From NCBI RefSeq assembly GCF_900156345.1, contig NZ_FTPP01000001.1, forward strand, positions 1,922,001-1,986,000: a DNA stretch of 64,000 nucleotides. The letters run 5' to 3'. Within the stretch, counting starts at the first letter, position 1. Each line of letters starts with the position of its first letter. This document shows positions 1-64,000 of the stretch, piece after piece. The notes under the pieces were generated by a model. It saw only the letters and a list, made by a program, of their open reading frames with translations. It made no database searches and was not told where the DNA came from. This stretch comes from Pontibacter indicus. Its GTDB lineage: Bacteria > Bacteroidota > Bacteroidia > Cytophagales > Hymenobacteraceae. The translations under genes were made by a program, and so were the position numbers.

Positions 1-1138
1 GGGCTACTGGCATCAGCACAAACAGGTTCTCGCAGCCTTCCGGCGCCACGCTAGCATCTGTTACCGACGGAGCTGACACATAAAACAGCGGCTTAGCCGG
101 CCATTTCGGGTCGGTATAGATTTCGTGGGCATGCGGACCAAAATCTTCGTCAAAGAACAGGTTGTGGTGACGCAGGTTGCTAAGTTTCTTGCCTATACCT
201 AAATAGAAGATCAGACAGGAAGGCGCCATCACCCGCTTGTCCCAATAATCCTCGGTATAGCTTCTAAGTTCCGGTGCCAGCAATTGGCGTTCGACGTGGT
301 GGTAATCGGCACTGGCCACAACCACGTCGGCCTCGAACATACCGGTGGCAGTCCGCACCCGGCGGGCTATTCCTTGCTCCACCTCTATCTCCTTCACATC
401 CTGGTTGTAGAGGAACGATACACCCTTCTCTTCGGCCAACTGTACCATCCCTTCAATGATCTTGTACATACCGCCCAACGGGTACCAAGTACCCAGGCTG
501 ATGTCAGCATAGTTCATCAGGCTATACAAAGCCGGTGTGTTCTGTGGTAGTGCCCCCAGAAAGAGCACCGGAAACTCCATCAACTTAATGATCTTTTCGT
601 GTGAAAAAAAGCGGCGGATGTGCGTGTGGATGGACTGAAACACATCCATGCGGAGCACATCCAGCAACAGGCGCAGGCTCATAAACTCTGTCACAGAGCG
701 GCCGGGCTTATACACGAGTTGGTTTATACCTACTTCGTATTTGTAGGCGGCCTGTTCCAGAAACTGGTCGAGACGGGCGGCACTTCCCGGCTCCCATTGC
801 TCAAACAGGGCTTTCAGTTCGTCCAGCGAAGCAGGCAGGTCGACAAAATCGTTTTCGCCAAACACCACGGTATAGGAAGGGTCAAGGCGGACGAGGTCAT
901 AGTAATCGGAAACGCTTTTGCCAAACTTGTTGAAGTACGACTCAAACACGTCGGGCATCCAGTACCAGCTCGGTCCCATGTCGAAGGTATAGCCGTCGGC
1001 CTCGAAGCTGCGGGCGCGACCGCCGGGTGTGGCGTTCTTTTCGAGCACCGTCACCTCATACCCCTGGTCAGCCAGGCTGGTGGCAGCCGAAAGACCCGAG
1101 AAGCCGGCACCGATCACGATCACTTTTTTTGACATCAT
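1..1138 (-). CDS. crtI: Phytoene desaturase CrtI, C-terminus cut by the window edge
   Basis: Desaturates phytoene towards lycopene in carotenoid synthesis, probably membrane-associated with FAD. The first 379 codons are visible. The protein opens with a dinucleotide-binding Rossmann motif (VIVIGAGFSGL, residues about 6-16), followed by LEKNATPGGRA and FDMGPSWYWMPDVF, all typical of Bacteroidota CrtI. Two ATG codons stand in tandem at 1138 and 1135, and either could be the start. It follows the sigma-factor gene by 36 bases on the same strand, so the two are probably cotranscribed. No stop occurs before base 1; phytoene synthase is often the next gene in related clusters but lies outside the window. 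Confidence 0.92.
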   Translation of the reverse strand, partial: MMSKKVIVIGAGFSGLSAATSLADQGYEVTVLEKNATPGGRARSFEADGYTFDMGPSWYWMPDVFESYFNKFGKSVSDYYDLVRLDPSYTVVFGENDFVDLPASLDELKALFEQWEPGSAARLDQFLEQAAYKYEVGINQLVYKPGRSVTEFMSLRLLLDVLRMDVFQSIHTHIRRFFSHEKIIKLMEFPVLFLGALPQNTPALYSLMNYADISLGTWYPLGGMYKIIEGMVQLAEEKGVSFLYNQDVKEIEVEQGIARRVRTATGMFEADVVVASADYHHVERQLLAPELRSYTEDYWDKRVMAPSCLIFYLGIGKKLSNLRHHNLFFDEDFGPHAHEIYTDPKWPAKPLFYVSAPSVTDASVAPEGCENLFVLMPVA

Positions 1139-1174
1139 CTAGAAATTTACTACAAAATCAGGTATAAGTTGTAA

Positions 1175-1696
1175 TTAGTCGCCATAAACCTGCAGCATCT
1201 GCTTCAGTTCTTTGCGCGCTATGTGGATGCGATTCTTTACCGTTCCGATCGGAATGTTCAGTTTTTCAGCGATTTCTAAGTATTTATACCCAATGTAGTA
1301 CATCATAAAAGGCGTGCGGTGCTCCTCATTTAATTTCGCAATGGCTGCCTTTATATCACTCATCACAAATGCCGCCGTCCCTTTATTCACCGTCACGAAG
1401 GTGTCGTCTGTGTTCATGTACTGCAGGTATTCTGTGCTATCGACGTTGCTGCTGCGCTTTGTTATTTTGTTGTAGTTGTTGATAAACGTGTTCCGCATGA
1501 TGGTATAAAGCCAGGCCTTGAGGTTGGTGCCGGTGTTAAACTTCTCGCGGTTTGACAGCGCCTTGAGCAGTGTCTCCTGCACCAGGTCTTTGGCATCGTC
1601 CGCATTGCGAGTAAGGTTCATGGCTACCGGCTTCAACGAACCAGCTGCCAAGAGGATATGATTGGAAAATTCTACTGCCGTCATACTGTTTAACAT
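1175..1696 (-). CDS. ECF-type RNA polymerase sigma factor (sigma-70 family)
   Basis: A small alternative sigma factor of 173 residues. Region 2 is visible as DAKDLVQETLLKAL and LKAWLYTIMRNTFIN (about residues 33-75), and region 4 as YLEIAEKLNIPIGTVKNRIHIARKEL near the C-terminus, giving the two-domain ECF layout with no extra domain. No anti-sigma gene is adjacent. It lies directly upstream of crtI and downstream of the crtZ-merR unit, so a role in switching carotenoid synthesis is likely but inferred. An alternative start four codons in (1684) is possible. It has its own promoter-like sequence (1715-1746). Confidence 0.9.
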   Translation of the reverse strand: MLNSMTAVEFSNHILLAAGSLKPVAMNLTRNADDAKDLVQETLLKALSNREKFNTGTNLKAWLYTIMRNTFINNYNKITKRSSNVDSTEYLQYMNTDDTFVTVNKGTAAFVMSDIKAAIAKLNEEHRTPFMMYYIGYKYLEIAEKLNIPIGTVKNRIHIARKELKQMLQVYGD

Positions 1697-1714
1697 TTAT
1701 TGGTAATCACTAAA

Positions 1715-1746
1715 CAATTATACGGGCTTAATTAATTTTTGTCAAA
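1715..1746 (-). promoter_or_regulatory. Bacteroidota-type promoter of the sigma-factor/crtI unit
   Basis: Read on the minus strand, TTTG (1746-1743) is followed after exactly 20 bases by TATAATTG (1722-1715). This matches the Bacteroidota consensus TTTG-N19/20-TAnnTTTG except for one A in place of T. The -7 box ends 18 bases before the ATG at 1696. It implies separate transcription of sigma factor and crtI from the crtZ-merR unit. Confidence 0.6.
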
Positions 1747-1823
1747 TTTTGTTTAACATTTATTTGTAAAACATACACAAATTAGAAGATATAGAAGACC
1801 ATAAATTATAACTTTAGGCAACT

Positions 1824-1858
1824 AAAAAGGCCAAACCGAAATTGGCTTGGCCTTTTTT
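1824..1858 (-). terminator. Intrinsic terminator after the crtZ-merR unit
   Basis: An 11-bp perfect stem, AAAAAGGCCAA pairing with TTGGCCTTTTT, with a 12-base loop and T-runs on both sides. It lies 36 bases beyond the stop of the MerR gene and upstream of the sigma-factor promoter, so it separates two transcription units on the minus strand. Confidence 0.8.
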
Positions 1859-1894
1859 GTTGAACTATACCTGCGTTAGCAGACTGTTTAACTT

Positions 1895-2782
1895 CTAAAT
1901 ATTTTTTTTCAACACGGCTTCAAAATCAGCAATGCAGCTCAGGCGCTGTGTGTTTTTAGGAAACTCCAGGAAGCTGTGTTGTGCCTGGTAGCCGTAAAAA
2001 TAGATTTGCGCCTCCGGAAAAGTAGACGCCACCCGCTCGATGTATTCCTGTACAAACTCGCGCTCCGGCACGATCGTCAGTACCGTGCAAATAATGGAAG
2101 GCTTCAGTTGCTCGTAGGTGCGCTTCAGGTCCTCGAAAGGCAGGTTCTGCCCCAGGTAGATCACTTGCTGGTGGTGCGCCCGGATCAGGTAATTTATGAA
2201 GAGCAAGGCGATCTCATGCAGTTCTCCTTCCGGTAGGTATAACAAATAGGTAAGGGCGTCGGCGCTGCGTTTCACCACCTGCCCGTCAATGGCCACAATC
2301 AGCTTTTGCCGCACCAGGTTGCTCACAAAATGCTCGTGCGCCGGGCTGATGTTGTTCGTCTGCCACAGGATGCCAATTTTATGCAGGAAAGGGTATAGCA
2401 CCTTCAGCATGGCGTCCTGAAAGCCCAGCTGCAGCGTCACGGTAGAGAAGGTCTTATCGAAACGCTCCTCATCCATGTCGATCATGGCGGTGACCATGTT
2501 GTTGATGTGGTGTGAGAGGGTCGTGTTCTCCTGTTCGGCCAGTTGCTGCACCGTCTGCTTCAGCTGCTCGGGCGTCATCTTGGCGATCTTGGAAATTTTG
2601 TAGCCTTGCTCGTTGAGGAGTGAGATATTGAGCAGCGTCTTCAGATCGGCATCGCTGTAATACCGGATGTTGGTATCGGTGCGCTGCGGACACAGCACGT
2701 TATAGCGCTGTTCCCAGATGCGGATCGTGTGAGCTTTGATACCTGATAGGTGTTCTAGCTCTTTGATGGTGTACTGCGCCAC
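1895..2782 (-). CDS. MerR-family regulator with cobalamin-binding-like C-terminal half
   Basis: A predicted DNA-binding regulator of the carotenoid genes. The N-terminal MerR helix-turn-helix begins YTIKELEHLSGIKAHTIRIW and continues through RYYSDADL. The C-terminal half resembles CarH/LitR B12-binding regulators: W140 is followed after nine residues by E150-H151, the W-x9-EH signature, and an ELHEIA segment (His about 189) stands where the cobalamin-ligand motif E/DxHxxG is expected, with Ala replacing Gly. The GTG at 2782 is chosen as start because it puts the HTH at the usual distance and has AAGGGGA upstream; the ATG at 2851 would add 23 atypical residues. The gene overlaps the end of crtZ by 28 bases, indicating cotranscription. 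Confidence 0.85.
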   Translation of the reverse strand: MAQYTIKELEHLSGIKAHTIRIWEQRYNVLCPQRTDTNIRYYSDADLKTLLNISLLNEQGYKISKIAKMTPEQLKQTVQQLAEQENTTLSHHINNMVTAMIDMDEERFDKTFSTVTLQLGFQDAMLKVLYPFLHKIGILWQTNNISPAHEHFVSNLVRQKLIVAIDGQVVKRSADALTYLLYLPEGELHEIALLFINYLIRAHHQQVIYLGQNLPFEDLKRTYEQLKPSIICTVLTIVPEREFVQEYIERVASTFPEAQIYFYGYQAQHSFLEFPKNTQRLSCIADFEAVLKKNI

Positions 2783-3264: not shown

Positions 3265-3308
3265 CAAACAACAAGTTTAACAAATGGTTTTGAAAGTTTA
3301 ACAGAAAT

Positions 3309-4396: not shown

Positions 4397-4424
4397 TTTT
4401 AGCTAAATACCACACAATTATACC

Positions 4425-10256: not shown

Positions 10257-10272
10257 CAGGTATAGCTATACC
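10257..10272. repeat. Inverted pair of the abundant octamer
   Basis: AGGTATAG immediately followed by CTATACCT gives a perfect 16-bp palindrome abutting the stop codon of the M3 peptidase gene. It is one of several dimeric arrangements of this octamer near gene ends in the window. Confidence 0.85.
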
Positions 10273-12003
10273 TTAAATATTGGCCATCTCTCCTTTCACA
10301 AAATCTACCAGGCTGTTGATGTACTCAGTACTGAAATCGAACTTGATGCCAGCGGCTTCATACACCTCGCCGATCGTGACGGTATAGCCCAGACTCAGGG
10401 CGCGCTTGTAGGCGGCCAGCCCTTCGGCAGGATTCTCTTTGTAGTTCTTCCAAACCGCGATCGCACCTAGTTGTGCCATGGCATACTCCACGTAATAGAA
10501 CGGCACCTCGTAAATGTGCAGCTGTTTCTGCCAGATAAAGGGCTTGTACTTCTCAAGTCCGCTCCAGTTCACCTCCTGGTGGTTGAAGCGGCCGAAAATA
10601 TTGAGCCACTCCTGATGGCGCTCTTCCTGCGAATGGCTCGGATGCTCATACAGCCAGTGCTGAAATTTGTCCACGGTGGCCACCCACGGGAAGGTCTCAA
10701 GCACGCTCTCCAGATGGGTGCGTTTGGCGCGGCGCAGCTCGTCTTCATCGCTAAAGAAGGTATCCCAATAATCCATCGAAATCAGCTCCATGGACATAGA
10801 GGCCAGCTCGGCTACTTCGGATGGCGGGTGTTTGAAAGCACCCAGCGTCAGGTCGCGGGTCAGGAAGGAGTGCACGGCGTGGCCGCCTTCGTGCAGCATC
10901 GTAATCACGTCGCGCAGGCTCGAGGTGGCATTCATGAAAATGAACGGCACGCCGATCTCGTCGAGTGGATAGTTATACCCACCCGGGGCTTTCCCTTTTC
11001 TGGATTCCAGATCGAGGTGACCCATCTCGCGCATGGTGGCCAGGCAGTCGCCCAGGTAGGTGTCGAGGTTATAGAATACCTGAATGGTTTTCTCGAGCAA
11101 TTCTTCGCCCGAAGTGAACGGCTCCAGCGGGGCTTTTCCACTCGGGTCTACGTCCAGGTCCCAGGGGCGCAGGTCGGCTATACCTAGCTTTTGCTTGCGC
11201 TCGCGGTCTATGCCTGTCAGCACGGGCACAATGGTCTCTTCGATGGACTGGTGGAAATCAAAGCAATCCTGTGGGGTGTAGTCGAAGCGGCCCATGGCAG
11301 CGAACATGTAGTCGCGGAAGTTGTCGAAGTCGGCGTTTTTGGCCACCTGTGTACGGAGCTTCAGTAGTTCGTCGAACAGATCGTCGAGCTTCTGACGGTC
11401 CTGCGTGCGGCGTTCCTGTATGGCACGCCAGGCTTCCTCGCGCACTTCGCGCTCGTTGCGCTTCAGGCGGTCGGCAGCGCGTTGCAGCGTCATTTCTTCG
11501 CCATCCAGCGTCACGGTCATGGCGCCGGTTATGGCGGCATACTGCTGTTGTTTGGTGCTGATTTCGGTGTTGAGCGGAATGTTTTCTTCCCGGAAAATCT
11601 CCAGTGCACGTTCTACGCCGCGCAGGTAAATGCGGTATTTGTCTTTGTCGATCCCGTTTACGTATGGCGAGTGCATCAACTTCAGGTTGAGTTCGTGGTC
11701 GTAAGGGGCGATCTGGGGTTCAATCTCTGACACGAAATACTGGAAAGCCTTCGTGATTTCCTCGTTCTGGGTGTCGCAGGTCATGCGGATGTAGCGCCAG
11801 CCCAGGTCCTCGGAGAGCACGCTCTCGAGTTCGCTGCGGTCTTTCATCCACTTCTCCAGCTCCTCCACCGAATGGATGGCGCGGCTTTTCAGTTCTTCAA
11901 AATATGGCTGTATGGTTTCCCAATTATCTATTTTAAAGTCTTCGGACAGGTAAACCCGCTTCTTTCGTTCGGGTACTTGTATCATAGCTTCTGTTTTACT
12001 CAT
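10273..12003 (-). CDS. M3-family oligoendopeptidase (PepF-like)
   Basis: A cytoplasmic zinc metallopeptidase that degrades oligopeptides. The protein has 576 residues from the chosen ATG. The zinc motif HEGGHAVH lies at residues 371-378, with the third-ligand region EVAELASMSMELIS about 25 residues later. The ATG at 12003 is chosen because the upstream in-frame extension encodes 35 hydrophobic residues that overlap the paaE terminator. It sits between paaE and the lipoprotein gene on the same strand, apparently unrelated to the phenylacetate genes. Confidence 0.9.
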   Translation of the reverse strand: MSKTEAMIQVPERKKRVYLSEDFKIDNWETIQPYFEELKSRAIHSVEELEKWMKDRSELESVLSEDLGWRYIRMTCDTQNEEITKAFQYFVSEIEPQIAPYDHELNLKLMHSPYVNGIDKDKYRIYLRGVERALEIFREENIPLNTEISTKQQQYAAITGAMTVTLDGEEMTLQRAADRLKRNEREVREEAWRAIQERRTQDRQKLDDLFDELLKLRTQVAKNADFDNFRDYMFAAMGRFDYTPQDCFDFHQSIEETIVPVLTGIDRERKQKLGIADLRPWDLDVDPSGKAPLEPFTSGEELLEKTIQVFYNLDTYLGDCLATMREMGHLDLESRKGKAPGGYNYPLDEIGVPFIFMNATSSLRDVITMLHEGGHAVHSFLTRDLTLGAFKHPPSEVAELASMSMELISMDYWDTFFSDEDELRRAKRTHLESVLETFPWVATVDKFQHWLYEHPSHSQEERHQEWLNIFGRFNHQEVNWSGLEKYKPFIWQKQLHIYEVPFYYVEYAMAQLGAIAVWKNYKENPAEGLAAYKRALSLGYTVTIGEVYEAAGIKFDFSTEYINSLVDFVKGEMANI

Positions 12004-12051
12004 CGATAGTTCTGTAAAGAAGAGGTAATATAGACACTTCTCCTGAAAGTG

Positions 12052-12093
12052 CAAAAAAAAAGCTGCACTATATATGTAAAATATAGTGCAGCT
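12052..12093 (-). terminator. Strong intrinsic terminator after paaE
   Basis: The minus strand reads AGCTGCACTATAT, a 7-base loop, then ATATAGTGCAGCT and an uninterrupted run of eight or more T. The 13-bp stem is perfect. It ends the paaE transcript 25 bases after its stop codon. Confidence 0.92.
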
Positions 12094-12117
12094 AAAATGA
12101 AGTTCCAACAGTTAATT

Positions 12118-17114: not shown

Positions 17115-18347
17115 ATGATACAACCCATCTTAATCCTCGGTGCCTTAGTACTTGGCCTCAACAGCTGTTCGCCGAAGCAAAGCCCTGCTGCTACCGCAGA
17201 ACAGAACACACCCGTAACCGAAACCACCACTGCCCCGGAAGCGCCTGCGGCCAAGCCCCTGGTATTGGGCGCTGAGCAAATGGACCGTTACCTGAAGCAA
17301 CTGGAAGGCAAGCGGGTAGGCATGGTCGTGAACCAGACCTCTGTGATTGGCAAGACGCATTTGGTAGACACCCTGATCAGCCGTGGCGTGCAAGTGACCA
17401 CCATTTTTGCCCCTGAGCACGGTTTCCGTGGCGAAGCCGACGCTGGTGCGCACATCAAGGACGCGAAAGACACCAAAACGGGATTGCCAATCATCTCGCT
17501 CTATGGCAGCAACAAGAAGCCATCGAAAGACCAGATGAAGAACCTCGACGTGCTAGTGTTCGACATTCAGGACGTGGGCACGCGTTTCTACACCTACATC
17601 AGTACGATGCACTACGCCATGGAGGCCTGCGCCGAGAATGGTAAAAAGATGCTCGTGCTGGACCGTCCGAACCCGAATGGTCACTATGTAGACGGCCCTG
17701 TGCTGGATATGGCACACAAGTCCTTCGTAGGCATGCACCCGATTCCGATTGTGCACGGCCTCACCGTAGGCGAACTGGCTGAGATGATCAACGGCGAGAA
17801 ATGGCTGGAAGGCGAGAGAAGCTGCGACCTGACCGTGATTAAAATGGACAACTACGACCACACGATGGCTTACGAACTGCCTGTGCGTCCTTCCCCGAAC
17901 CTGCCGAACACGCAGTCTATCGCGCTATATCCTTCGATCTGCTTCTTTGAGGGCACGAACGTGAGCGTAGGCCGCGGCACACCTACTCCGTTTCAGGTAA
18001 TCGGCTCGCCGTTCTACCAGAAGGAGGATTACTCGTTTACTCCTGTGAGCATGCCGGGCGCCACTGACCCACCCCACAAAGGCGTAACCTGCTATGGCAT
18101 GGATCTGACTGACGTATCGCATGCACAGCCTTTCACGCTCAAGTACCTGCTGGAGATGTACAACAACTCGTCGAATAAAGAGAAATTCTTCAACAACTTC
18201 TTCGAGAAGCTGGCGGGCACCTCGGAGTTGCGCAAGCAAGTGATTGCCGGCAAAACAGAAGCTGAGATAAAAGCCAGCTGGGAGCCGGAGCTTTCGGATT
18301 ACAAAGTGCTCCGCAAAAACTACTTGCTATACCCTGATTTTGAATAG
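17115..18347 (+). CDS. NamZ/DUF1343 exo-beta-N-acetylmuramidase, lipoprotein
   Basis: Predicted to release terminal N-acetylmuramic acid from peptidoglycan fragments in the periplasm. The protein has 410 residues with a lipobox (GLNSCS, Cys18), a Thr/Ala/Pro-rich linker to about residue 48, then the DUF1343 core: VVNQTSVIGKTHLVDTL, APEHGFRGEADAG, DIQDVGTRFYTYI, LDRPNPNG and FFEGTNVSVGRGT. These are the family's conserved blocks. Fmt starts 4 bases after its stop, so the two genes are cotranscribed although functionally unrelated. Confidence 0.9.
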   Translation: MIQPILILGALVLGLNSCSPKQSPAATAEQNTPVTETTTAPEAPAAKPLVLGAEQMDRYLKQLEGKRVGMVVNQTSVIGKTHLVDTLISRGVQVTTIFAPEHGFRGEADAGAHIKDAKDTKTGLPIISLYGSNKKPSKDQMKNLDVLVFDIQDVGTRFYTYISTMHYAMEACAENGKKMLVLDRPNPNGHYVDGPVLDMAHKSFVGMHPIPIVHGLTVGELAEMINGEKWLEGERSCDLTVIKMDNYDHTMAYELPVRPSPNLPNTQSIALYPSICFFEGTNVSVGRGTPTPFQVIGSPFYQKEDYSFTPVSMPGATDPPHKGVTCYGMDLTDVSHAQPFTLKYLLEMYNNSSNKEKFFNNFFEKLAGTSELRKQVIAGKTEAEIKASWEPELSDYKVLRKNYLLYPDFE

Positions 18348-19402: not shown

Positions 19403-19894
19403 ATGATCGCTATCGTCGTCGCCATTGCCGAAAACAACGTCATCGGGAAGGACAACCAGTTAATCTGGTATCTGCCCGCCGACTTGCGCCATTTCAAGCA
19501 AAAGACCATGGGGCATCCCATGATTATGGGTCGCAAAACGTTCGAGTCTATCGGCAAGCCCCTCCCCGGCCGCACCACCATCATCGTAACGCGGCAGGAA
19601 GATTACAAGGCCGAAGGCTGTATTGTAGTGAACTCCGTGGAAAAAGCGATCGAAAAAGGCAAGGAACTGGACAGCGAACAGATAAGCATTGTGGGAGGCG
19701 CTGAGATTTACAGGCAAGCCTTACCGTTTGTAGACACGCTATACCTGACACAAGTGCATCATGCATTTGAGGGCGATACTTTCTTTCCGGAGTTGAAGGA
19801 GGAGGATTGGCAGGAAGTATATGCGGAAAGCCATGATCCGGACGAGAAAAACAAGTATGCCTATACCTTCAAAGAGCTTCGCCGCAAGGTATAG
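19403..19894 (+). CDS. folA: Dihydrofolate reductase
   Basis: Reduces dihydrofolate to tetrahydrofolate with NADPH. The protein has 163 residues, normal length. Motifs include IAIVVAIAENNVIGKDNQL, LPADLRHFKQKTMGHPMIMG, KTFESIGKPLPGRTTIIVT and SIVGGAEIYRQAL. The last codons (CGC AAG GTA TAG) form the first unit of a 13-bp tandem array that runs 136 bases past the stop, so the array probably arose by duplication of this gene end. Confidence 0.96.
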   Translation: MIAIVVAIAENNVIGKDNQLIWYLPADLRHFKQKTMGHPMIMGRKTFESIGKPLPGRTTIIVTRQEDYKAEGCIVVNSVEKAIEKGKELDSEQISIVGGAEIYRQALPFVDTLYLTQVHHAFEGDTFFPELKEEDWQEVYAESHDPDEKNKYAYTFKELRRKV

Positions 19895-20030
19895 CCGCAA
19901 GGTATAGCCGCAAGGTATAGCCGCAAGGTATAGCCGCAAGGTATAGCCGCAAGGTATAGCCGCAAGGTATAGCCGCAAGGTATAGCCGCAAGGTATAGCC
20001 GCAAGGTATAGCCGCAAGGTATAGCCGCAA
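19881..20030. repeat. Tandem array of 11 identical 13-bp units plus a partial unit
   Basis: The unit GCCGCAAGGTATA is repeated without a single difference 11 times (19881-20023), followed by GCCGCAA (20024-20030). Unit one includes the final codons and stop of folA. Each unit holds one copy of the genome-abundant octamer AGGTATAG across the junction. It is a minisatellite likely to vary in copy number; it separates folA from its terminator. Confidence 0.97.
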
Positions 20031-20090: not shown

Positions 20091-23000
20091 TTACCGCAGG
20101 ATGTAAACCTTGCCATACCCGTTCACAAAGCCCTTGTCACCCTTCTTCCAGATATGCTTCATCTCCTCTGTATCTTTCGGCATTACTACACGGTAGAGGT
20201 ACACCCCGTTAGCTAGCTTGTCGCCATACATATCGGTACCATCCCAAGCATACTCCGTTTTATTATTGCCAATACGGATCGGACCGATCTCCTCCCGCAT
20301 AATCTCCTTTACAATCTTGCCCGTCACGGTCATGATCTGGATTTTAAAATCATTTGGAATTACGCCACCGGTTAGCGTAAAAATGAACTGCGTCTTGGTA
20401 GAGAAAGGATTTGGGTACGGGTAAAAGTTCGTGATCTTAGACTCGTTCTCTACTTCAAAGTTGATTTTGTATGAAGAATTACCAGAGGCTTTTCCTGTCG
20501 CATCTTTGCCCTTTACTTCCAAGGTATAGATGCCATTCTCCAGACGTTCTGGCTTGTACTCGAAACGGAAATCATTTTTTTCGTCTGCCGGGAAAACACG
20601 AAGCTCACTCGGCTTTGCAGATTCTCTAACATCAACTGAGACATTGGTTGCATTATTAGTTAAGTAGACTTCCATTGCATCAGCATTTTCTAAATAGACA
20701 TGTTTGTTTTCGTCTTTCATGGTAATGCTGATGAGAGGACTTGGCGCCACTAGTTCTCCATCCATAATATGTACGCCGTCAAAAGCCACATCCATAATCG
20801 GGTGTAACTTCGATTTTACCCCAAAGTTCACTTCATAGATGTTGTTCTGGTACTGCTGTTCCGGCTGCAACTGCGGGTTCACGTACATGCTCAGCTTATA
20901 ATTCCCATCTAGGTCGAGCGTTGGCATCGTATAATTGAACGTGGCTGTTTTATTTCCTTCTAGTGCCTCGATTTTAAATTGAGACACACGGGGCTCTATA
21001 CCTTCACCGGTAAGTGTTACCTCCACTGTTATCGAATCACGGAATGCATAAGGTGTCACATTTTGGAATGCCATCGGCATTTCTATCCTGCCGCGGTTTG
21101 CTTGCTGTCCCACTATTTCATCACTTACTTCTACCAAGTCAGGCCTTATTACCCCTTCTGGGGCTGCCTGATAATATACCAGCCATTGTTTCAGTTGCGG
21201 TACTGTTTGGTTTTCTGTATCCGATAATTCTGCCTGCAACTGCAGATGCGGGTACCTTGCGGCATCTATCTGGCTTAAGTCAAAGGATTTGGTCGTTACC
21301 GCATCATTCAGTAACTCACGATTTCCGTCAATTCCAATTCCAAACAGCTTCAGTAGATAGCTGTCATTGCCTGCCTTATAACGCTCAATGTTGTGGTGCA
21401 GGGTGCCCCACTTCAATGCAGGACCGATTAAGGTGGAGGTGATGGAACCTTGGATGCTGAAAGTATTAATGGTAGCTCGTAAAGCAATTTCTTGAGAAGT
21501 AGGTAAAATTTCATCCGAAAGATTAGGGCCTAATTCTTGTATGCTACCAGGTTCAGCACCTTTATGACCGACAAAGGCAAACGGGTAACCTGTCTTTAAT
21601 TCATCAATTAAGCTTGAACCGACACTTCTAAACGCCGCTTTCAGTTCGGGTGTAAATAATTCAAACGGCACTTGATTAACACTAACTCCCGCCACATAAT
21701 AGCCTGCAGGAATGTTTGTCAGAAATCGCTGTAAGTTTGCCCGTATAGTTGGGTTATTTAAGTCTCCAAATTGATATATGTTTGGTATAATAGAGCACGG
21801 ATTGAATCCCGGCACCCTTGACTTGTTTAAGTTCTTATCATCAAAAACGATGAAGAACATGCGTGGAACAGCTGAAGTGCGATAGTTACCGCAAGCTGGG
21901 TCCAACTCTGCGATTCCATTATTGACAATAGTGTGAATCGGATAGGTAAATCTTTTATCTCCTCCAATAGTCCTTATCTCAATATTTTTATAAAGTTCGC
22001 TGAAGTTCCAGGTTTGTTCTTTATCCTTGATTTCAACTCCACTTTTCTTAGCTGACTTAAACTGCCCCGCATGGCTTTGCGACCATCCCCCTTGGCTATC
22101 TTTTACATACCTGAATGAACTATTGACCCAGACTGTATCTTCGGACTCAGCAAAGGAGGCAAAGCGTGCTCTCCAGTAAAATACTGTACTATCCGTATTA
22201 GTGTTTTGAATTGGAAGTGAAACCTCCCATGCGGGCAGAGTGCCTGCCTGAACTTGCTTAAACTGTTTTAACCCAGAGTTAAATTTATGTGTCGTGTCAA
22301 TTTCAAAGTAAACTCCTTTAGGTTCGGCCCTGAGCTGAGTAGACTGAACAACCAGATTCACCTTGGGCGAATTTATAATTGCAAACTCCATCGGAGCGAG
22401 CAAGGAAATACCTGAACTGGGAAAAAAATGATTTAATATCAAGGTATTGTTGCCTTCATTTATTTCATCAATATTCGACGGACTATCTAAAATTACTTCA
22501 ATCCTGTTCATGCCCGCTGCAACAAATGTGAACTCTTTATTGGACAGAGGAAGCGTTAATTGCTCTCTGTACAATATTGGCTTCACTTTTATAATGACAG
22601 GAGCTAACTGCGTGTTATCAGGTAATGTTCGCTTTACAGTTACAGACACAGAATCTGTTATAGCTTTACCAAGATTTATTGCATTGACAGTCAGTACAAG
22701 ATTTTCTGTTGCTGCAATAGCCACATTCCCGTCAGCATCTCTTAAACTATAGTTATTGTTCTCGAAAGCATAATCTGGCTTGGCAGGGGAGTAGAATTTA
22801 AATGCAGGGTCTCCTTGCAATACCATCTGGGTCATTGTAGCGACATGCTCCCCTCGGTGATAAGCTGAACTTGTAGAATAATAGCGCTTAATTACTTCTT
22901 GCTGAATCTCTCCGATCGTGCGTCCCCAAAAAGCATTATCAGCAAAAGCCACTTGATAAACCCTACTGGAGAACTCATTTAGAGGTCCATCAGCTGCAAT

Positions 23001-25148
23001 GTAGGTCTGAGCCATATAAGAGAGGGCTCCCTTTTCAGGTGTTAATATCCAGTCCTCGCCAAATGACCTGAAATTATAAATGAAAGCATCACCATTGTAA
23101 CAGCCATTCATTAATACAGCTGGATACTTACCCTTATTTTTATATCCGTGAATGCTTTCGGATACATACCCAATATCAATTTCAGATGTATTCACACCTG
23201 AGTGCCCAAAAAATGTCATTAAAGAAAGTCCAGCATTTACCTCTTCAGAAACATTAAGTCTGGTAATTGCTTCACTTACTTCTTGACGGAACATTTCAAG
23301 TACGTTTGCTCCAAAGAAAGGCCCCTTAGCTATATTCTTATAGTTTGTTAACCAATTTTTAAATAGGCTGATTTGAGCACTGGTTGCCCCTCCTCCCAGA
23401 TGCATCATATTCTTACGCCAGGCCAAGCCTTCCGGAAGTGCTTCATTTTCCTTCATTTTATTCAAATAGGAAATGATGTCTTCAGGCGTCGTGGCAGGCA
23501 GTCGGCCAGTGGGCACACGGGGTTCATACCGATTGTTCCTAAAATCGGCGGTAAAGAAAACATCAGATGATGGTATCATCCCCGTCGGCACCAGGTCATA
23601 TTCATACACTTTGGGGTGACGGTCTCCAATATGGTAAAAACTCCACTTATTATTATGCACCGCTCTGTAATCATCCCAGGCATATTTCATCCCCTTCCCG
23701 ATTATAAACAAATGTTTCTCGCGGCTGGCAGTGAGCATGTATGACATGAACTTGCGCACCGCATTCGACGAATACTCACCATAATGAAATTGGTCAACCA
23801 CTTGGTCTACATGCACTAACAACGTATCGTAACCACCACCAGCTGCCGATGCCCGATAAGCTGCATATTCTACTGGGGCAGGCCTTGATGCTCCCACAGG
23901 TTTCATAAGGCGTTTGTTGGTCAGTATAATGTAATTATGTGCATCTGCACTGATATTTCTGAAGCGCAACGTCTCTGCATTCCCAGATGCTTTAAAAGAA
24001 CGACTTGTATTGGCTAATAATATCTTGTGCGTTCTGTTTTCTGTAGGCACTGCAAAACCTTTCGCTTGTCCGCTCATGTGTCCTACTATGCGCACAGGGT
24101 TAGCGGGGTCTGTAATGTCATAAGCCACAGTAGTCTCGTTGGCACCATTAAACAAAAAGTAGGGAGTAGAAGCACGTGTAGAGTCAGTATAAAACACTAA
24201 GGCATTACTGACAAACGTGTTCTTGCGAGCAAAAGTAACAGCTACATAAGACAGTGATACATCGTTTGATGGAGTGGCATCTGGCTGTGTCTGTACTCTG
24301 AAAAGCCCGTTCGCAGACAAATCACTGTATTCTAAGCCCCCGGATATCTTCTGATAGCCATACCCTTCTATTTTGAAACGGGTTAACGTCCTGGCCGCGC
24401 CCACAGGCGGCACAGCATTTAAGTTGCCTTCGTGCATATTGGCATTCACGCCGAAAACTACCGCCTCAAATCTGGGCTTCGGCCCTGTTGGCTCAGCGTT
24501 TATTAAGCCAGACACATCATAGTTCTTAGCAACTCTTGCATGAACTGACATATATCCCTCGCCTTCGTCCATCCAGGAAAGTAAGGATTTAGGCGTTCCG
24601 TGTTGCTGACCATAGTGATACCTGTCCACAAAAAACTGAGTGGCTTTATGCAAGTGATACGGCTCCGGCGTTTTCCCCGCCGGTGAAGGATTGACCTCCT
24701 GCATACGCTTTCCTCCGGTAGGATTCACTGTCAGGAAGTAGGCGGCAGTATCTGTATATAAACTGTAAAGCTGATGTGGCTGATGGGCCGGATTCTTATA
24801 CAGATCCTGGTCCAGGCGGCCGTCGTTGCGCTCGCCGTAGAATTCGATGAAGTCCTCCCTATCCAGACGACCATCTGCTTCGCCGGCCACGTGAATGGCG
24901 ACTTCCTTGCCCCTTCTGAAGAGCTGGAAGTGCTGTGGGTTGGTTCCGGCTAGGCCTAAACTATCCAGGAAGCCGTAGCTGAGGCGGTGGAGGCCTGTGT
25001 TGACCACCTTGAGCTTGTAGTAGGTTTTGCTGTAGTCGATCCACTCGTTGCCGTAGGGCGTGGGCGATTGGGCCTGGACCGTTGCCTGCAGACCGAATGC
25101 CAGCACGCTAACGAACAAAAACTGTAGGAAGAGTCTATGTATTTTCAT
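20091..25148 (-). CDS. Giant C25 (gingipain-like) cysteine peptidase, PorU2-type T9SS protein
   Basis: A secreted or surface protein of 1685 residues. A signal peptide (ending near VQAQS, residue 28) is followed by a propeptide-like beta region, then a peptidase C25 domain (about 430-810) with the catalytic histidine segment MTFFGHSGVNTSEID and cysteine segment LMNGCYNGDAF. Several CARDB/Ig-like beta domains follow, and a type IX secretion C-terminal domain of the FlgD-like kind (FYPYPNPFSTKTQFIF ... AWDGTDMYGDKLANGVYLYRVV). It is much longer than PorU itself (about 1,100 residues), matching the PorU2 group. It shares a unit with a PorV-like barrel gene 22 bases upstream. Its middle part is visibly AT-richer than its ends. 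Confidence 0.88.
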   Translation of the reverse strand: MKIHRLFLQFLFVSVLAFGLQATVQAQSPTPYGNEWIDYSKTYYKLKVVNTGLHRLSYGFLDSLGLAGTNPQHFQLFRRGKEVAIHVAGEADGRLDREDFIEFYGERNDGRLDQDLYKNPAHQPHQLYSLYTDTAAYFLTVNPTGGKRMQEVNPSPAGKTPEPYHLHKATQFFVDRYHYGQQHGTPKSLLSWMDEGEGYMSVHARVAKNYDVSGLINAEPTGPKPRFEAVVFGVNANMHEGNLNAVPPVGAARTLTRFKIEGYGYQKISGGLEYSDLSANGLFRVQTQPDATPSNDVSLSYVAVTFARKNTFVSNALVFYTDSTRASTPYFLFNGANETTVAYDITDPANPVRIVGHMSGQAKGFAVPTENRTHKILLANTSRSFKASGNAETLRFRNISADAHNYIILTNKRLMKPVGASRPAPVEYAAYRASAAGGGYDTLLVHVDQVVDQFHYGEYSSNAVRKFMSYMLTASREKHLFIIGKGMKYAWDDYRAVHNNKWSFYHIGDRHPKVYEYDLVPTGMIPSSDVFFTADFRNNRYEPRVPTGRLPATTPEDIISYLNKMKENEALPEGLAWRKNMMHLGGGATSAQISLFKNWLTNYKNIAKGPFFGANVLEMFRQEVSEAITRLNVSEEVNAGLSLMTFFGHSGVNTSEIDIGYVSESIHGYKNKGKYPAVLMNGCYNGDAFIYNFRSFGEDWILTPEKGALSYMAQTYIAADGPLNEFSSRVYQVAFADNAFWGRTIGEIQQEVIKRYYSTSSAYHRGEHVATMTQMVLQGDPAFKFYSPAKPDYAFENNNYSLRDADGNVAIAATENLVLTVNAINLGKAITDSVSVTVKRTLPDNTQLAPVIIKVKPILYREQLTLPLSNKEFTFVAAGMNRIEVILDSPSNIDEINEGNNTLILNHFFPSSGISLLAPMEFAIINSPKVNLVVQSTQLRAEPKGVYFEIDTTHKFNSGLKQFKQVQAGTLPAWEVSLPIQNTNTDSTVFYWRARFASFAESEDTVWVNSSFRYVKDSQGGWSQSHAGQFKSAKKSGVEIKDKEQTWNFSELYKNIEIRTIGGDKRFTYPIHTIVNNGIAELDPACGNYRTSAVPRMFFIVFDDKNLNKSRVPGFNPCSIIPNIYQFGDLNNPTIRANLQRFLTNIPAGYYVAGVSVNQVPFELFTPELKAAFRSVGSSLIDELKTGYPFAFVGHKGAEPGSIQELGPNLSDEILPTSQEIALRATINTFSIQGSITSTLIGPALKWGTLHHNIERYKAGNDSYLLKLFGIGIDGNRELLNDAVTTKSFDLSQIDAARYPHLQLQAELSDTENQTVPQLKQWLVYYQAAPEGVIRPDLVEVSDEIVGQQANRGRIEMPMAFQNVTPYAFRDSITVEVTLTGEGIEPRVSQFKIEALEGNKTATFNYTMPTLDLDGNYKLSMYVNPQLQPEQQYQNNIYEVNFGVKSKLHPIMDVAFDGVHIMDGELVAPSPLISITMKDENKHVYLENADAMEVYLTNNATNVSVDVRESAKPSELRVFPADEKNDFRFEYKPERLENGIYTLEVKGKDATGKASGNSSYKINFEVENESKITNFYPYPNPFSTKTQFIFTLTGGVIPNDFKIQIMTVTGKIVKEIMREEIGPIRIGNNKTEYAWDGTDMYGDKLANGVYLYRVVMPKDTEEMKHIWKKGDKGFVNGYGKVYILR

Positions 25149-25176
25149 CGGCTGTAAAACTTAAAACCGTATGTTG

Positions 25177-26271
25177 CTAATTGAAAGAATACCCTAAGGA
25201 AATGATAATGGAGTAAAGCCCTGCCGCGTTGGCCGTGTTCCCATCGCGTCCGTTGATGCGCGACATGGCCAGGTCGATGTTCAATCCATTATTCTGAAAG
25301 CCAACACCGAAGTTTGGCTGCACTTTGGAGGACATCCCTCCGTCAAAATTCCGGAATTGCTGGTAATTGTTCAGGCCGCCGCGCACAAACACGGTCTGGG
25401 CATAGGCCAGCTCCATCCCCACATGCGGGTCTACAGAGGCAAAATCAGATTTGAGGAGCACATTGCGTCGACCGTCGAAAGTAAAGTCCACGTCGGTGGC
25501 CAGAATGCCTGTTATTTTATCGGAAAAGGTGAAGTTCTTGGCGGCTCCCAGCACCAGACGCGGCAGGGTGAGCTCTGCTGTGCTTTCGGGCAGGTCGTTG
25601 CCGGTTTGCTGGTAAGTCTCCTCCAGCGCCTCCACATTATGCGTCCAGGCAGTGAAGGTGGTGGTCACGTCTTTGGCCATTACGCCGAACTGCCAGGTGC
25701 CGCGGCGCAGTTGGGCGCCTGCATCGAAACCGAATCCCCAGGCATTGGCAAACTCGCCTACGTTACGGTAAATGATCTTCGCATTCACCCCTAGTGTAAG
25801 GCCTTCAATTAGATTGCTCTTGCGGGCATAGGAAAGCAGCATCGCGTAATCGGCCACGGAGAAGAAGCGGATGCTGTCGTACTGGATGTAGCCGTACTCG
25901 TTCTGCAGGCGGCGGGTATCCACGATGTCGTCTACGCCGAGGCGGATGACTGAAACGGCCAGCGCGCTGCTCGAGTCGATGGGCATGGCAAAGCTACCGA
26001 AGTCATTTTTGGCGATGCCCGCAAATAGTTCGGAGTGCATCAAGGCGATGTTATACCTGTTGCGAAGCTGCACCAAACCGGCCGGGTTCCAGAAGCCAGC
26101 CGTGGCATCGTCGGCTATGGCTACCTGCACGTTGCCCATGCCGAGCGCCCGGGCTCCCACGCCAATGTTCAAGAACTCGTTGCTGTACTTCGGCGTGGAC
26201 ACCTGCGCCACGGCAGCCCCACTCACAATACACAGCACGGCAATAAGTAGAGAAAGGGTAAATCTGTTCAT
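25177..26271 (-). CDS. PorV/PorQ-family outer-membrane beta-barrel protein (PorV2-like)
   Basis: A 364-residue outer-membrane protein with a signal peptide (ending AAVAQ) and the family signature at the mature N-terminus: YSNEFLNIGVGARALGMGNVQVAIADDATAGFWNPAGL. The rest alternates amphipathic strands as in FadL-like barrels and ends in aromatic F-N (LGYSFN). The ATG at 26271 is chosen over a GTG two codons earlier. It is immediately upstream of the C25 peptidase gene, and PorV proteins shuttle T9SS cargo or anchor PorU, so the two probably act together. Confidence 0.87.
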   Translation of the reverse strand: MNRFTLSLLIAVLCIVSGAAVAQVSTPKYSNEFLNIGVGARALGMGNVQVAIADDATAGFWNPAGLVQLRNRYNIALMHSELFAGIAKNDFGSFAMPIDSSSALAVSVIRLGVDDIVDTRRLQNEYGYIQYDSIRFFSVADYAMLLSYARKSNLIEGLTLGVNAKIIYRNVGEFANAWGFGFDAGAQLRRGTWQFGVMAKDVTTTFTAWTHNVEALEETYQQTGNDLPESTAELTLPRLVLGAAKNFTFSDKITGILATDVDFTFDGRRNVLLKSDFASVDPHVGMELAYAQTVFVRGGLNNYQQFRNFDGGMSSKVQPNFGVGFQNNGLNIDLAMSRINGRDGNTANAAGLYSIIISLGYSFN

Positions 26272-26500
26272 AGGCACAGGTATACTGTCACTTCAGGGGT
26301 CTTAAAAAGAAATATGTCCGCTCGGTTAAAAAAATATTTACCGCTCTCCTGGCAGGGCAATTTGCCTCCTAACACTTCAGAAACTGAATTAGTTGACTTT
26401 CTGCGACATTTTTTCGCATCCAAAAATAATCATTTTTATCCACAATAAGGTGCTGCATAAACCCTTTCAAAAAAGTTTCGTAATTATTTTTACACAGTAC

Positions 26501-31013: not shown

Positions 31014-31126
31014 CACAAAAATAAAGAGATAAAATTTAAGCACGCGCCCAAAATTTTGCCTCAGCTCTAAAATACAGGTATAGCAGGTCTGCACCTATAT
31101 CTATACCTATACCTATACCTTATGCC

Positions 31127-41384: not shown

Positions 41385-41545
41385 GAAATGCTTTGATCTA
41401 AAAGAATGAATCGCAAAGGTAGACATCAGCAAAAGCACAGCGGCTCCTGCTGACGCCTTCGACAAGGTATAACCCTGTCAGTGGTACAAAGCTATACCTG
41501 AGCTATACCTGTAAGGAAAGTAAATCCCTGCCTGTTTTGGATTGA

Positions 41546-50857: not shown

Positions 50858-50877
50858 GCTATACCTGCAGGTATAGC
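50858..50877. repeat. Perfect 20-bp palindrome made of two inverted octamers
   Basis: GCTATACCTG joined to CAGGTATAGC, abutting the stop codon of the CoA-transferase gene. It lacks a T-run, so it is not a standard terminator. Confidence 0.9.
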
Positions 50878-58707: not shown

Positions 58708-58744
58708 GCTATACCTGTTTGTCTATAAACAATGCAGGTATAGC
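58708..58744. repeat. Hairpin formed by an inverted octamer pair
   Basis: GCTATACCTG (58708-58717) and CAGGTATAGC (58735-58744) with a 17-base loop, between pncA and its terminator. Confidence 0.85.
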
Positions 58745-59817: not shown

Positions 59818-59886
59818 GTTATCAGAGTTAAAAGGTAAATTCCTTCTTACGGGAGCAATGCCTGAAGGTATAGCAGGTATAGGTTG

Positions 59887-60831
59887 CTAGAGCACCTGCC
59901 CGATGCCAAAGAGCAGCACAAACAGCATGGTCGTAATGGCCATCTGTTTCAGGTATGGATCGAGCTCAGCGGAGGTTTGCTTGCGCCACACGTTCACACC
60001 GTTTGAGATCAGCAGCGGCAATGTCAGCACAAACAGAAACTGCCAGGTGCTGTAGAAGTGGAGCAGCACATAGGTAAAGGCACTCGTCACCCCACCAATC
60101 AACAATATGATGTGGTAAATGCGCGCACGCTTTGGTCCCAACCGCACAGGTATAGACCGCTTGCCGGCCAGCACATCAGACTTAATGTCGCGGATGTTGT
60201 TCACGTTGAGCACCGCAGTCGCGAAGAAGCCACAGACCATGGCCGGCAGGATAACTAAAGCAGGTAGCGACTGCGACTGCAAGAAGAAGGTACCCAGTAC
60301 CCCTACTAGTCCGAAGAACAGGAACACGAAGATATCGCCCAATCCGGCGTAGCCGTAGGGTTTGGAACCGGCGGTATAGTTGATGGCCGCCCAAATGGAG
60401 GCCAGGCCCAGTCCCAGGAAGACAAGGAACAGGTAGATTCCCTCCGTGCCAAATGCCACCCACAGCAGCAGCAAACCCGACACCAGCGAGAGCAGGCTGA
60501 ACACGGCCATCCCCTTCTTCATATGCTCGGCCTTAATTATGCCTGCCTGTACCGCCCGCTTCGGCCCCTCCCGGTGCTCACTGTCGGCCCCGTGTATGGA
60601 GTCGCCGTAGTCGTTGGCCAGGTTGGAAAGGATTTGCAAAAAGAGCGTAGTGAGTACGCACAGGCCCACCACCAGGGCATCAAAAGCTCCGTATGCAGCG
60701 GCCATGAAGCCGCCCATGCCGATGCAGGAAAAAGCCAGCGGCAGTGTGCGCGGCCTAAAAGCGGAAATCCAGGCCTTGACCAGACCTGGATTCTGCGGAA
60801 TGTGTTGTGTTGTGTCCAATGTATTTCTCAA
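59887..60831 (-). CDS. menA: 1,4-dihydroxy-2-naphthoate polyprenyltransferase MenA
   Basis: Integral membrane enzyme attaching the isoprenoid tail in menaquinone synthesis. The protein has about 314 residues and eight or nine hydrophobic helices. The two Asp-rich prenyl-diphosphate sites are LANDYGDSIHGADSEHREG and NNIRDIKSDVLAGKRSIPV. The start appears to be TTG at 60831 (or a second TTG four codons on); no ATG lies nearby. It supports menaquinone-based respiration. No other men gene is adjacent. Confidence 0.93.
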   Translation of the reverse strand: MRNTLDTTQHIPQNPGLVKAWISAFRPRTLPLAFSCIGMGGFMAAAYGAFDALVVGLCVLTTLFLQILSNLANDYGDSIHGADSEHREGPKRAVQAGIIKAEHMKKGMAVFSLLSLVSGLLLLWVAFGTEGIYLFLVFLGLGLASIWAAINYTAGSKPYGYAGLGDIFVFLFFGLVGVLGTFFLQSQSLPALVILPAMVCGFFATAVLNVNNIRDIKSDVLAGKRSIPVRLGPKRARIYHIILLIGGVTSAFTYVLLHFYSTWQFLFVLTLPLLISNGVNVWRKQTSAELDPYLKQMAITTMLFVLLFGIGQVL

Positions 60832-60867
60832 AAAAGCAGGTATAGCAAAGGTCTATACCTGACAAAA

Positions 60868-61461
60868 TTACTTCTGAATTGCCGCCAGGATCTCCTCGCC
60901 CATCGGCTTTACTTTGGATGGGTAGAAGGCGACCACTTTGCCGTTCTCGTCGATCAGATACTTGCTGAAGTTCCAGCTTGGCTCCTCTTGGTTCGGGCTG
61001 TTTTTGGCCAGCCACTGGTAGAGCGGGTGCTGGTCATCGCCTTTCACCGATACTTTCTCCATCATTTGGAAAGTCACGCCATAGTTCTTTTGGCAGAACT
61101 CAGCAATCTGCTCTTTCGAACCCGGCTCCTGTCCGCCAAAATTGTTGGCCGGGAAGCCCAGGATCACTACCTTGTCGCCGTGCGTCTCGTGGAGCTTTTG
61201 CAGGTCGGCGTACTGTGGGGTATAGCCGCACTCCGAGGCGGTGTTCACCACCAACACTTTTTTGCCTTTGAACTTCGAGAAATCGATCTCTTTCCCGTCC
61301 AGGCTCTCTATTTTGAAGGAGTAAAAGCCGTTGGCCTGTGCCGTTTGATTCGTCTCTGTTGCCATATCATTGGTTTGGTTTGCGTTAGATGATCCGCCTG
61401 TGCAGGCTGTCGATACACCTAGTACCATGGCTACTGTCAAAAGTTGTGCGATGCGCTTCAT
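60868..61461 (-). CDS. Glutathione peroxidase family lipoprotein
   Basis: A thiol peroxidase of 197 residues. The lipobox STACTG (Cys20) predicts export, and a polar linker precedes the core. The catalytic cysteine is in VNTASECGYTPQ, the conserved Gln in PANNFGGQEPG and Trp-Asn in SWNFSKYL. As in most bacterial homologues Cys replaces selenocysteine, and thioredoxin-like donors are likely. It may protect the envelope from peroxides. Confidence 0.92.
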   Translation of the reverse strand: MKRIAQLLTVAMVLGVSTACTGGSSNANQTNDMATETNQTAQANGFYSFKIESLDGKEIDFSKFKGKKVLVVNTASECGYTPQYADLQKLHETHGDKVVILGFPANNFGGQEPGSKEQIAEFCQKNYGVTFQMMEKVSVKGDDQHPLYQWLAKNSPNQEEPSWNFSKYLIDENGKVVAFYPSKVKPMGEEILAAIQK

Positions 61462-61534
61462 GTTAGCTTTGCTTAAGGTATAGATTCCGGCTGATAAACC
61501 TGAATTTATTAGGTTTGTTTTAACTTCTTAAAAC

Positions 61535-61662: not shown

Positions 61663-61684
61663 CCTGTATACCTATACCTCAACC

Positions 61685-63475: not shown

Positions 63476-63483
63476 TAAGTAGA

Positions 63484-63999
63484 TTAATGTATAGCTGTTT
63501 TATTGAATTCTCGGTGTAATATGGCGTCGGTGGCAGTTTCGAGAATATCGAAGGCGTTCTCGGCCATGGTATTTTCGGTATCGAGCGTCGGGTTGATCTC
63601 CGTCATCTCGTAGCAGACAATGCGCGGGTCCTGCAGCAGGTGATAGTTCAGCTCCTGCGCTTCCTCCACCCTCAGGCCCACCTCTACCGGCGTGCCCGTG
63701 CCTTTCGAAAACTTGGAGTCGAGGCTGTCCACGTCGAAGGACACGTAGATGATGTCGCAGTCGCGCAGGCGCTCCAGGGCCTCTGCCGCTACCCGTGCCG
63801 CCCCCTTCTGGGTAAACTCGGCATAGGTAAAGTTCTTGATGCCGTGCTTTTCCATCAGGTAGTCTTCCGGCTCCTCGGTGTCGCGCACCACCACATAGAC
63901 CAGGTGCTCGGGCTTCATCTTCGGACCCGGATAGGCCAGTTTCTTAAGCGAGTTCCAGAAGAAGATGGTCTCCGGCTCCGGGTCGTTGATCTGGCGCTC
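63484..63999 (-). CDS. Arginase/agmatinase-family hydrolase, N-terminus beyond the window
   Basis: The last 172 residues are visible. The manganese-ligand segment YVSFDVDSLDSKFSKGTGTPV is characteristic of ureohydrolases, followed by the Glu region (VCYEMTEINPTLD). The frame stays open to the window end (FFWNSLKKLAYPGPK), so the gene begins outside. With argS directly downstream on the same strand, arginase is the likeliest member; agmatinase or formimidoylglutamase remain possible. Confidence 0.85.
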   Translation of the reverse strand, partial: ERQINDPEPETIFFWNSLKKLAYPGPKMKPEHLVYVVVRDTEEPEDYLMEKHGIKNFTYAEFTQKGAARVAAEALERLRDCDIIYVSFDVDSLDSKFSKGTGTPVEVGLRVEEAQELNYHLLQDPRIVCYEMTEINPTLDTENTMAENAFDILETATDAILHREFNKTAIH

Positions 64000-64000
64000 G

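Follow-up and report, generated by a model that had tools for sequence, protein, structure and literature searches.

The octamer AGGTATAG occurs 94 times, on 51 occasions on the plus and on 43 on the minus strand, in a 64-kb stretch of the genome of a bacterium of the genus Pontibacter (Bacteroidota). The word is probably the dialect spoken locally in a system resembling that of DNA uptake sequences, which would be served by the pilus-less transformation of the Bacteroidota. The stretch, which is called the window and is always meant at its full length, comprises positions C8:1922001-1986000 of the genome designated G000. AGGTATAG ranks first among all octamers of the window, where 1.84 copies are expected from the base composition and 1.8 under an order-2 Markov model. 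The expectation of a Markov model of maximal order is 86, which shows only that the 7-mers contained in the word are inflated to the same degree, and the order-2 model is therefore the informative null. A previous inspection of the letters, referred to here as the sequence-only reading, had estimated about 90 copies against about two expected for a random octamer, with 21 copies in the first 12 kb; the last number is reproduced exactly and the other two closely. The overabundance is not restricted to the window, as the 4,566,239 bases of G000 contain 2,562 + 2,566 = 5,128 copies of AGGTATAG, whereas the reversed word used as a control is present in 38 + 27 = 65 copies. The genome thus carries the signature of a non-palindromic word of 8–12 bp that is repeated about 1.1 times per kb and equally on both strands, and it is by this signature, and not as a proven member, that the word is provisionally classed as an uptake sequence.

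The uptake sequences established so far are those of Neisseriaceae and Pasteurellaceae. Among the articles listed by searches of mostly openly accessible literature, without preprints, none deals with AGGTATAG, with an uptake sequence of Pontibacter, or with a defined one of any member of the Bacteroidota. The chance is judged slightly better than even that Pontibacter harbors an uptake-sequence system, the first among the Bacteroidota, with a non-pilus outer-membrane receptor belonging to a transformation machine of the Riemerella type, and with at least three dialects that replace each other within the genus, including genomes that are half-way and contain two of them.

The patchy occurrence of AGGTATAG within the genus is due to differences in dialect. 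AGGTATAG was counted genome-wide in 36 congeners and in 22 genomes from 20 other families of the order. It is abundant in eight of the congeners (2,823–5,222 copies) and present in 173–833 copies in the remaining 28; in the 22 genomes of the other families it occurs at 0.36–1.33 times the reversed control. Samples of 20 kb from the argS region of 40 congeners are dominated by AGGTATAG in 11 cases, by AAGTATAA in 15, and by AACTATAG in four; two samples contain both AAGTATAA and AACTATAG, and eight are unclear, one of which (G021) turned out to come from a AAGTATAA genome. The AGGTATAG dialect comprises 12 genomes including G000, nine of them counted genome-wide and three assigned from 20-kb samples. 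AAGTATAA reaches 2,125–7,030 copies in 23 of the 50 genomes of the genus, with 80–196 copies of its reversed control. The 12 AGGTATAG genomes contain 276–453 copies of AAGTATAA, and the four AACTATAG genomes, whose own word was counted in samples only, contain 788–921. Mixed genomes with both AAGTATAA and AACTATAG are G026, G032, and G065.

One of the three firm dialects is present in 39 of the 50 genomes, and the other 11, covered by 20–60 kb each and by the genome-wide count of AAGTATAA, have no firm word. Eight of these (G002, G007, G023, G024, G027, G033, G036, and G064) are without a clear word or retain it at relic level, G025 and G068 contain a weak AGGTGTAG, and G069 (~55% GC) has a tentative ATATATAA. 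AGGTGTAG was not counted as a dialect, because G025 contains ten copies in one 20-kb stretch and one in another. ATATATAA, with 33 copies in 40 kb and 13 in another 20 kb, may tentatively be considered a further dialect. Scanning for groups of three direct copies in close succession gave at least 110 loci; among the 80 matches listed, 25 belong to Pontibacter, with P. roseus, P. amylolyticus, and P. ramchanderi represented, and many of those in other bacteria are chance or repeat matches. In 20 stretches from five other genera of the family, the words that stand out are AACGCTAT in G072 (12 copies in 20 kb), ACCTAGGG in G074 (15 copies in 20 kb), and perhaps GAGCCCGA in G111 (eight copies); six stretches from the largest other genus of the family contain no comparable word. 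It is possible that AACGCTAT and ACCTAGGG belong to further dialect systems in these genera.

The dialects, as defined from the genus samples and genome counts, are consistent with the phylogeny of the genus. In a FastTree phylogeny of 41 genomes, built from argS, menA, and gpx and rooted at the midpoint, the 12 AGGTATAG genomes form one clade, the nearest sisters of which, G006 and G071, use AAGTATAA. The AACTATAG genomes also form one clade, with the mixed genome G032 at its base and the mixed genome G026 inside it. AAGTATAA is scattered over the tree and is therefore probably the ancestral word, and each of the derived words looks to have arisen once by this three-gene tree. The three words share TATA at positions 4–7, and each derived word is two substitutions away from AAGTATAA.

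The origin of individual sites was traced by aligning 14 genes codon by codon. In G071, where 26 distinct AGGTATAG sites could be placed, four read AAGTATAA, two read AGGTATAG, three are gapped, and the others are mostly one to three substitutions off. None of 24 AGGTATAG sites is listed as AAGTATAA in G006, where 16 differ by one to three substitutions, and one of 16 reads AAGTATAA in G013. Because most sites differ by one to three substitutions and few by gaps, the words originate mainly by point substitution, with some rewriting of the old dialect. Once present, the words are retained two to three times better than other octamers. Between species of the same dialect, AGGTATAG is kept in 482 of 986 pairs, compared to a fraction of 0.22 for octamers chosen at random from these genes; the corresponding values are 700 of 1473 versus 0.15 for AAGTATAA and 46 of 57 versus 0.26 for AACTATAG, all given without a p-value because the species pairs are not independent. 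Of five arbitrary control octamers, one has no sites and the others are kept at 0–0.30. In DNA alignments, the ratio of retention to background is 1.47–4.41 except for G021 (0.94) and G019 (1.09) in the argS region.

The anatomy of the word was determined in 684 kb of AGGTATAG-dialect genomes, which contain 747 copies. The motif is sharp, 8–10 bp long with tolerant edges, and has its boundaries at −1 and +8; very little information lies beyond positions −1 to +9. Positions 2–6 (GGTAT) are strict, whereas A1 may be replaced by G, A7 by G, and G8 by A or C. The preceding base is C in 49%, A in 24%, T in 19%, and G in 8% of the copies, and the following base is C in 50%, G in 25%, A in 18%, and T in 8%, which agrees with the preference for A or C before and C or G after the word that had been noticed in the window. 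AACTATAG often extends into the palindrome AACTATAGTT, with 159 overlapping pairs among 891 sites. Neighboring copies within 40 bp, counted in 864 kb, are head-to-head in 30 cases and tail-to-tail in 19, each compared to 12.4 expected, and direct in 112 compared to 24.7 expected, 45 of the latter overlapping at 6-bp steps. Head-to-head pairs with a gap of 3–14 bp occur 15 times in the 864 kb, and such pairs of the reversed word are absent. TTTT follows within 12 nucleotides in four of the 30 strand readings of these pairs compared to 1.4 expected, one of them at position 60838 of the window, which suggests, and does not establish, that inverted pairs are used as terminators.

The machinery that the word would require was searched for in the 50 genomes with the profiles PF03772 (comEC), PF02481 (dprA), PF12836 (helix-hairpin-helix, HHH), and PF00437 (pilus ATPase). 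comEC and dprA exceed the cut-off in all 50 genomes. All 50 also encode a ComEA-like HHH protein with several PF12836 motifs, three in the case of G000, and its reading frame is open at 304–346 residues in 49. PF00437 matches in all 50 genomes at E ≤ 0.001; however, the matches span at most 66 of 370 positions, and three genomes barely exceed the 24.9-bit cut-off (25.0–25.9). No convincing ATPase of type IV pili or type II secretion systems was thus detected among the 50 genomes by a search that did not include the pilins themselves. A pilus receptor of the type of ComP, the minor pilin that reads the uptake sequence of Neisseriaceae, is therefore unlikely. The Pontibacter word is also unrelated to that of Neisseriaceae and belongs to another phylum.

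A parallel is provided by Riemerella. Transformation of R. anatipestifer is described as requiring ComEC, DprA, a periplasmic HHH protein, and novel surface proteins; proteins with the domains DUF5689 and DUF1343 and an outer-membrane protein that carries a carboxypeptidase-regulatory domain are also among the essential components (PMC8459023). R. columbina is reported to prefer its own DNA, and its candidate words are A/T-rich k-mers at about 2–7 times expectation (PMC7965970, Table 3). Pontibacter and Riemerella are both Bacteroidota with ComEC, DprA, and the HHH protein and without known pilus machinery, and the preference of R. columbina for self-DNA adds to the likeness; they differ in that Pontibacter has a defined word, whereas R. 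columbina has k-mer candidates. DUF5689 (PF18942) was considered as a receptor of the word. It matches in 22 of the 50 genomes, 12 times in proteins of about 410–450 residues. Among the three gene contexts inspected (G000, G010, and G030), the neighbor is SusD in G010 and G030, which indicates a role in nutrient uptake there. In G000 (C6:429548-430075) the DUF5689 gene adjoins one for a TonB-dependent receptor that contains a carboxypeptidase-regulatory domain, a combination of domains also present in the Riemerella pair. However, DUF5689 is present in only five of the 12 AGGTATAG genomes (G000, G005, G010, G059, and G063) and is a lead at best. Separately, positions 17115-18347 of the window encode a NamZ (DUF1343) protein, a member of the family that includes the protein essential for transformation in Riemerella.

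According to the proposed mechanism, free DNA would be taken up via ComEC, DprA, the ComEA-like HHH protein, and a putative outer-membrane receptor. We infer that these genes serve transformation in Pontibacter, that uptake is biased by sequence, and that the receptor reads the word. If DNA bearing the word is preferred by the receptor or at another early step, such fragments would enter the cell and recombine more frequently. Point mutations that create the word would thus be favored by biased recombination, and copies would accumulate throughout the genome. Biased uptake and recombination have been proposed for Neisseria (PMC3630211). A shift in specificity would be followed by genome-wide overwriting, giving rise to the dialects AAGTATAA, which is probably ancestral, AGGTATAG in the clade of the window, and AACTATAG. 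No benefit at individual sites would be needed, both orientations would work, and the loss of competence would lead to the decay of the word.

Such a loss may be recorded in two genomes. Stops inside the comEC and dprA matches are reported in G021 and G009 only among the 50 genomes, and comparison with close relatives revealed frameshifts and stops in both genes of both genomes; the last part of G009 comEC is unmatched. The HHH gene of G021 carries three stops in addition to frameshifts; that of G009 has one stop, at residue 15. Thus, in the only genomes in which breaks were seen, comEC, dprA, and the HHH gene are all broken. Neighboring genes with recognizable homology are otherwise open, the exceptions being a 254-residue gene of G021 with a stop at residue 116 and a 1318-residue gene that stops seven residues early. 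Broken-looking reading frames beside comEC and dprA (271, 338, 345, 140, 172, 310, and 153 residues) have no Pfam match above the cut-off and were taken as antisense or chance; the break in a 258-residue frame near dprA in G009 lies within its first 33 residues, upstream of the start of the 220-residue frame in G000, and was also set aside. G021, from a AAGTATAA clade, contains 0.46 copies per kb compared to 0.71–1.44 in G011, G012, G013, G020, and G070. In a four-locus test, G021 lost 49 sites and gained 19 relative to G013 (p = 0.0004), and G009 lost 25 and gained 34 relative to G028 (p = 0.30), which is no net loss. The four-locus test is preferred to the argS-only retention test of G021 (2 of 14 sites), which is small and in which G019 behaves alike. 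The differing decay would be accounted for if G021 lost the competence genes some time ago and G009 only recently.

Several observations weigh against an uptake-sequence system. The eight genomes without a clear word keep comEC, dprA, and the HHH gene without reported stops, and so do G025, G068, and G069 with their weak or tentative words; since all 11 genomes without a firm word keep the three genes, these genes do not predict the word. In the full AACTATAG genome G017, the ComEC frame (C23:51507-52310) comprises only 561 residues instead of the usual ~700. G009, with all three genes broken, still contains 1.10 copies of AGGTATAG per kb, like its relatives, and provides the densest of the argS samples (36 in 20 kb), so that an uptake system requires very recent loss or assembly errors there. 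The breaks in G009 may be an assembly error, and a later start could bypass the stop at residue 15 of its HHH gene. G019, in which no break was seen, has a low density (0.45 per kb) and conservation near the background. The word of G021 is still ten times more frequent than its control, with one stretch containing 25 copies in 20 kb. No receptor of the word was found, and the non-independence of the species pairs tempers the retention values.

The copies of AGGTATAG in the window are as follows, together with their conspicuous arrangements, which had been pointed out by the sequence-only reading except for the hairpin at 60838.

Plus strand, starts of AGGTATAG: 985, 3797, 4520, 4820, 8302, 8516, 8640, 8671, 9489, 10258, 15701, 19271, 19312, 19887, 19900, 19913, 19926, 19939, 19952, 19965, 19978, 19991, 20004, 20017, 20522, 27334, 31076, 34892, 34909, 34973, 35264, 35565, 35582, 37857, 39398, 39978, 40556, 40995, 47655, 47682, 48561, 50869, 51321, 52062, 54246, 58736, 59866, 59875, 60148, 60838, 61476.
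Minus strand, starts of the word as CTATACCT: 193, 1865, 4285, 5003, 6695, 6950, 7276, 8955, 10172, 10266, 11178, 19122, 19739, 19861, 20996, 27481, 29466, 29476, 31101, 31107, 31113, 32171, 34693, 40179, 41492, 41503, 42701, 43849, 44139, 45341, 46545, 46900, 47638, 47780, 48867, 49385, 50099, 50859, 53370, 55943, 58709, 60853, 61672.
10258..10273, both strands: head-to-head pair without a gap (10258/10266), which forms a perfect palindrome of 16 bp and lies at the stop end of the minus-strand gene 10273-12108.
19887..20024, plus strand: tandem array of 11 copies of a 13-bp unit, AGGTATAG followed by CCGCA.
31101..31120, minus strand: three overlapping copies at 6-bp steps (31101/31107/31113).
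41492..41510, minus strand: two direct copies 11 bp apart (41492/41503).
50859..50876, both strands: tail-to-tail inverted pair with a 2-bp gap (50859/50869).
58709..58743, both strands: tail-to-tail inverted pair with a 19-bp gap (58709/58736).
60838..60860, minus strand: inverted pair forming a hairpin followed by TTTTTT, terminator-like, between the minus-strand genes 60868-61461 and 59887-60831.

The dihydrofolate reductase gene (19403-19894) ends with a TAG stop codon that is part of the first copy of the array, and the array is followed by an inverted repeat with a run of T. The word occurs both in genes and between them, as had been claimed, and it crowds between them: 46 hand-picked genes contain 39 sites (0.76 per kb) in either orientation relative to the gene, and the rest of the window contains 55 (4.24 per kb, or 3.47 without the array). 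Beyond the array, positions 20091-26277 contain large genes side by side, which from the look of their proteins may be PorU- and PorV-like (type IX secretion).

The sequence-only reading had likened the octamer to the highly iterated palindrome HIP1 of cyanobacteria, to uptake sequences, and to Chi, of which the uptake sequence is supported by the non-palindromic word, its density of ~1.1 per kb, the absence of strand bias, the dialects, and the origin by point substitution. HIP1 is a weaker fit, being a palindrome with methyltransferase ties. A HIP1-like process, in which a methyltransferase reads the word, mismatch repair rewrites near-matches, and a change of enzyme changes the dialect, is the foremost alternative and has a small but appreciable chance of being correct. 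HIPs are described as GC-rich palindromes tied to DNA methyltransferases, with species alternates, tied to these enzymes too, at 1,000–2,000 per million bases (PMC4390886); this hyper-abundance of an octamer with alternates in some species is shared by Pontibacter, in which single mismatches are enriched at edge positions of the word. However, AGGTATAG and AAGTATAA are not self-complementary and have a TATA core, and neither of the two adenine-methyltransferase families tested, PF01555 and PF07669 (Dam-like, type I, and C5 enzymes were left out), is common to all carriers. PF01555 is missing from two of the 12 AGGTATAG genomes (G003 and G010) and from all four pure AACTATAG genomes, and G013 and G062 are examples of strong AAGTATAA genomes that also lack it; strong PF07669 matches (>100 bits) are limited to six of the 12 AGGTATAG genomes and one of the four AACTATAG genomes, most others having weaker matches. 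Furthermore, repair at one position alone presumably could not yield the 35- to 80-fold excess. Specificity could also arise after uptake if a cytoplasmic recombination protein or nuclease favored donor DNA bearing the word, without a surface receptor. This is rather unlikely: it predicts the same dialects, symmetry, and conservation, and loss of competence genes would equally stop the drive, but there is no candidate protein, and specificity in Neisseria is reported at binding and uptake, although later steps are left open in one of these sources (PMC3630211, PMC3868556).

The non-coding crowding and the few terminator-like pairs are the features expected of a binding site for an abundant chromosomal or regulatory protein, or of a terminator module, selected site by site. 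It is very improbable that such selection is the explanation, as 39 of the 94 sites in the window lie inside genes in either orientation, and a change of word within one genus is hardly to be expected of sites that number thousands and are under weak selection, so that the dialect switch puts this explanation under strain. The length and abundance of the octamer are also those of an orientation signal such as Chi for RecBCD or AddAB, or the FtsK-orienting polar sequences (KOPS). An orientation signal is scarcely credible, because it is contradicted by the equal strand counts. In 20 stretches of 20 kb from the complete genome G030, AACTATAG occurs 333 times on the G-rich strand and 338 times on the other (p = 0.88), and in stretches of G000 the counts of the word are 274 and 245 (p = 0.22); thus no bias toward a replication strand is present in either genome. 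The crowding of the word in non-coding DNA also speaks against Chi and KOPS.

The system proposed for Pontibacter most resembles the DNA uptake sequence (DUS) of Neisseria, because of the origin of sites by substitution, their better retention, the lack of strand bias, and the crowding in non-coding DNA; it does not resemble Chi or the palindromic HIP1. The DUS of Neisseriaceae is described as a short non-palindromic word in thousands of copies, with dialects that follow phylogeny around a shared core and low counts of the other dialects (PMC3630211). Inverted pairs of DUS have been linked to terminators, and the 9-bp uptake signal sequence (USS) of Pasteurellaceae is repeated through the genome and also found in terminators (PMC13020248). 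The likeness to the DUS extends to the length, copy number, phylogeny-following dialects with a shared core, low counts of the other dialects, and inverted pairs; however, the Neisseriaceae dialects are described across a family, whereas those of Pontibacter switch inside one genus. The likeness to the USS lies in the repetition through the genome and perhaps in the occurrence in terminators, the word itself being another. The Pasteurellaceae USS has AT-rich flanks, and the Pontibacter word is without them.

If the octamer is part of an uptake-sequence system, it would represent a further case, from a distant phylum without a pilus, implying that bacteria have come to tag their own DNA more than once independently. 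With one ancestral dialect, two derived ones, and genomes that are mixed or decaying, the genus would constitute a natural experiment on how a tag originates, switches, and dies. The word would also offer a handle on the DNA receptor of Bacteroidota, which should covary with the dialect and may be broken in the same genomes as comEC, dprA, and the HHH gene.

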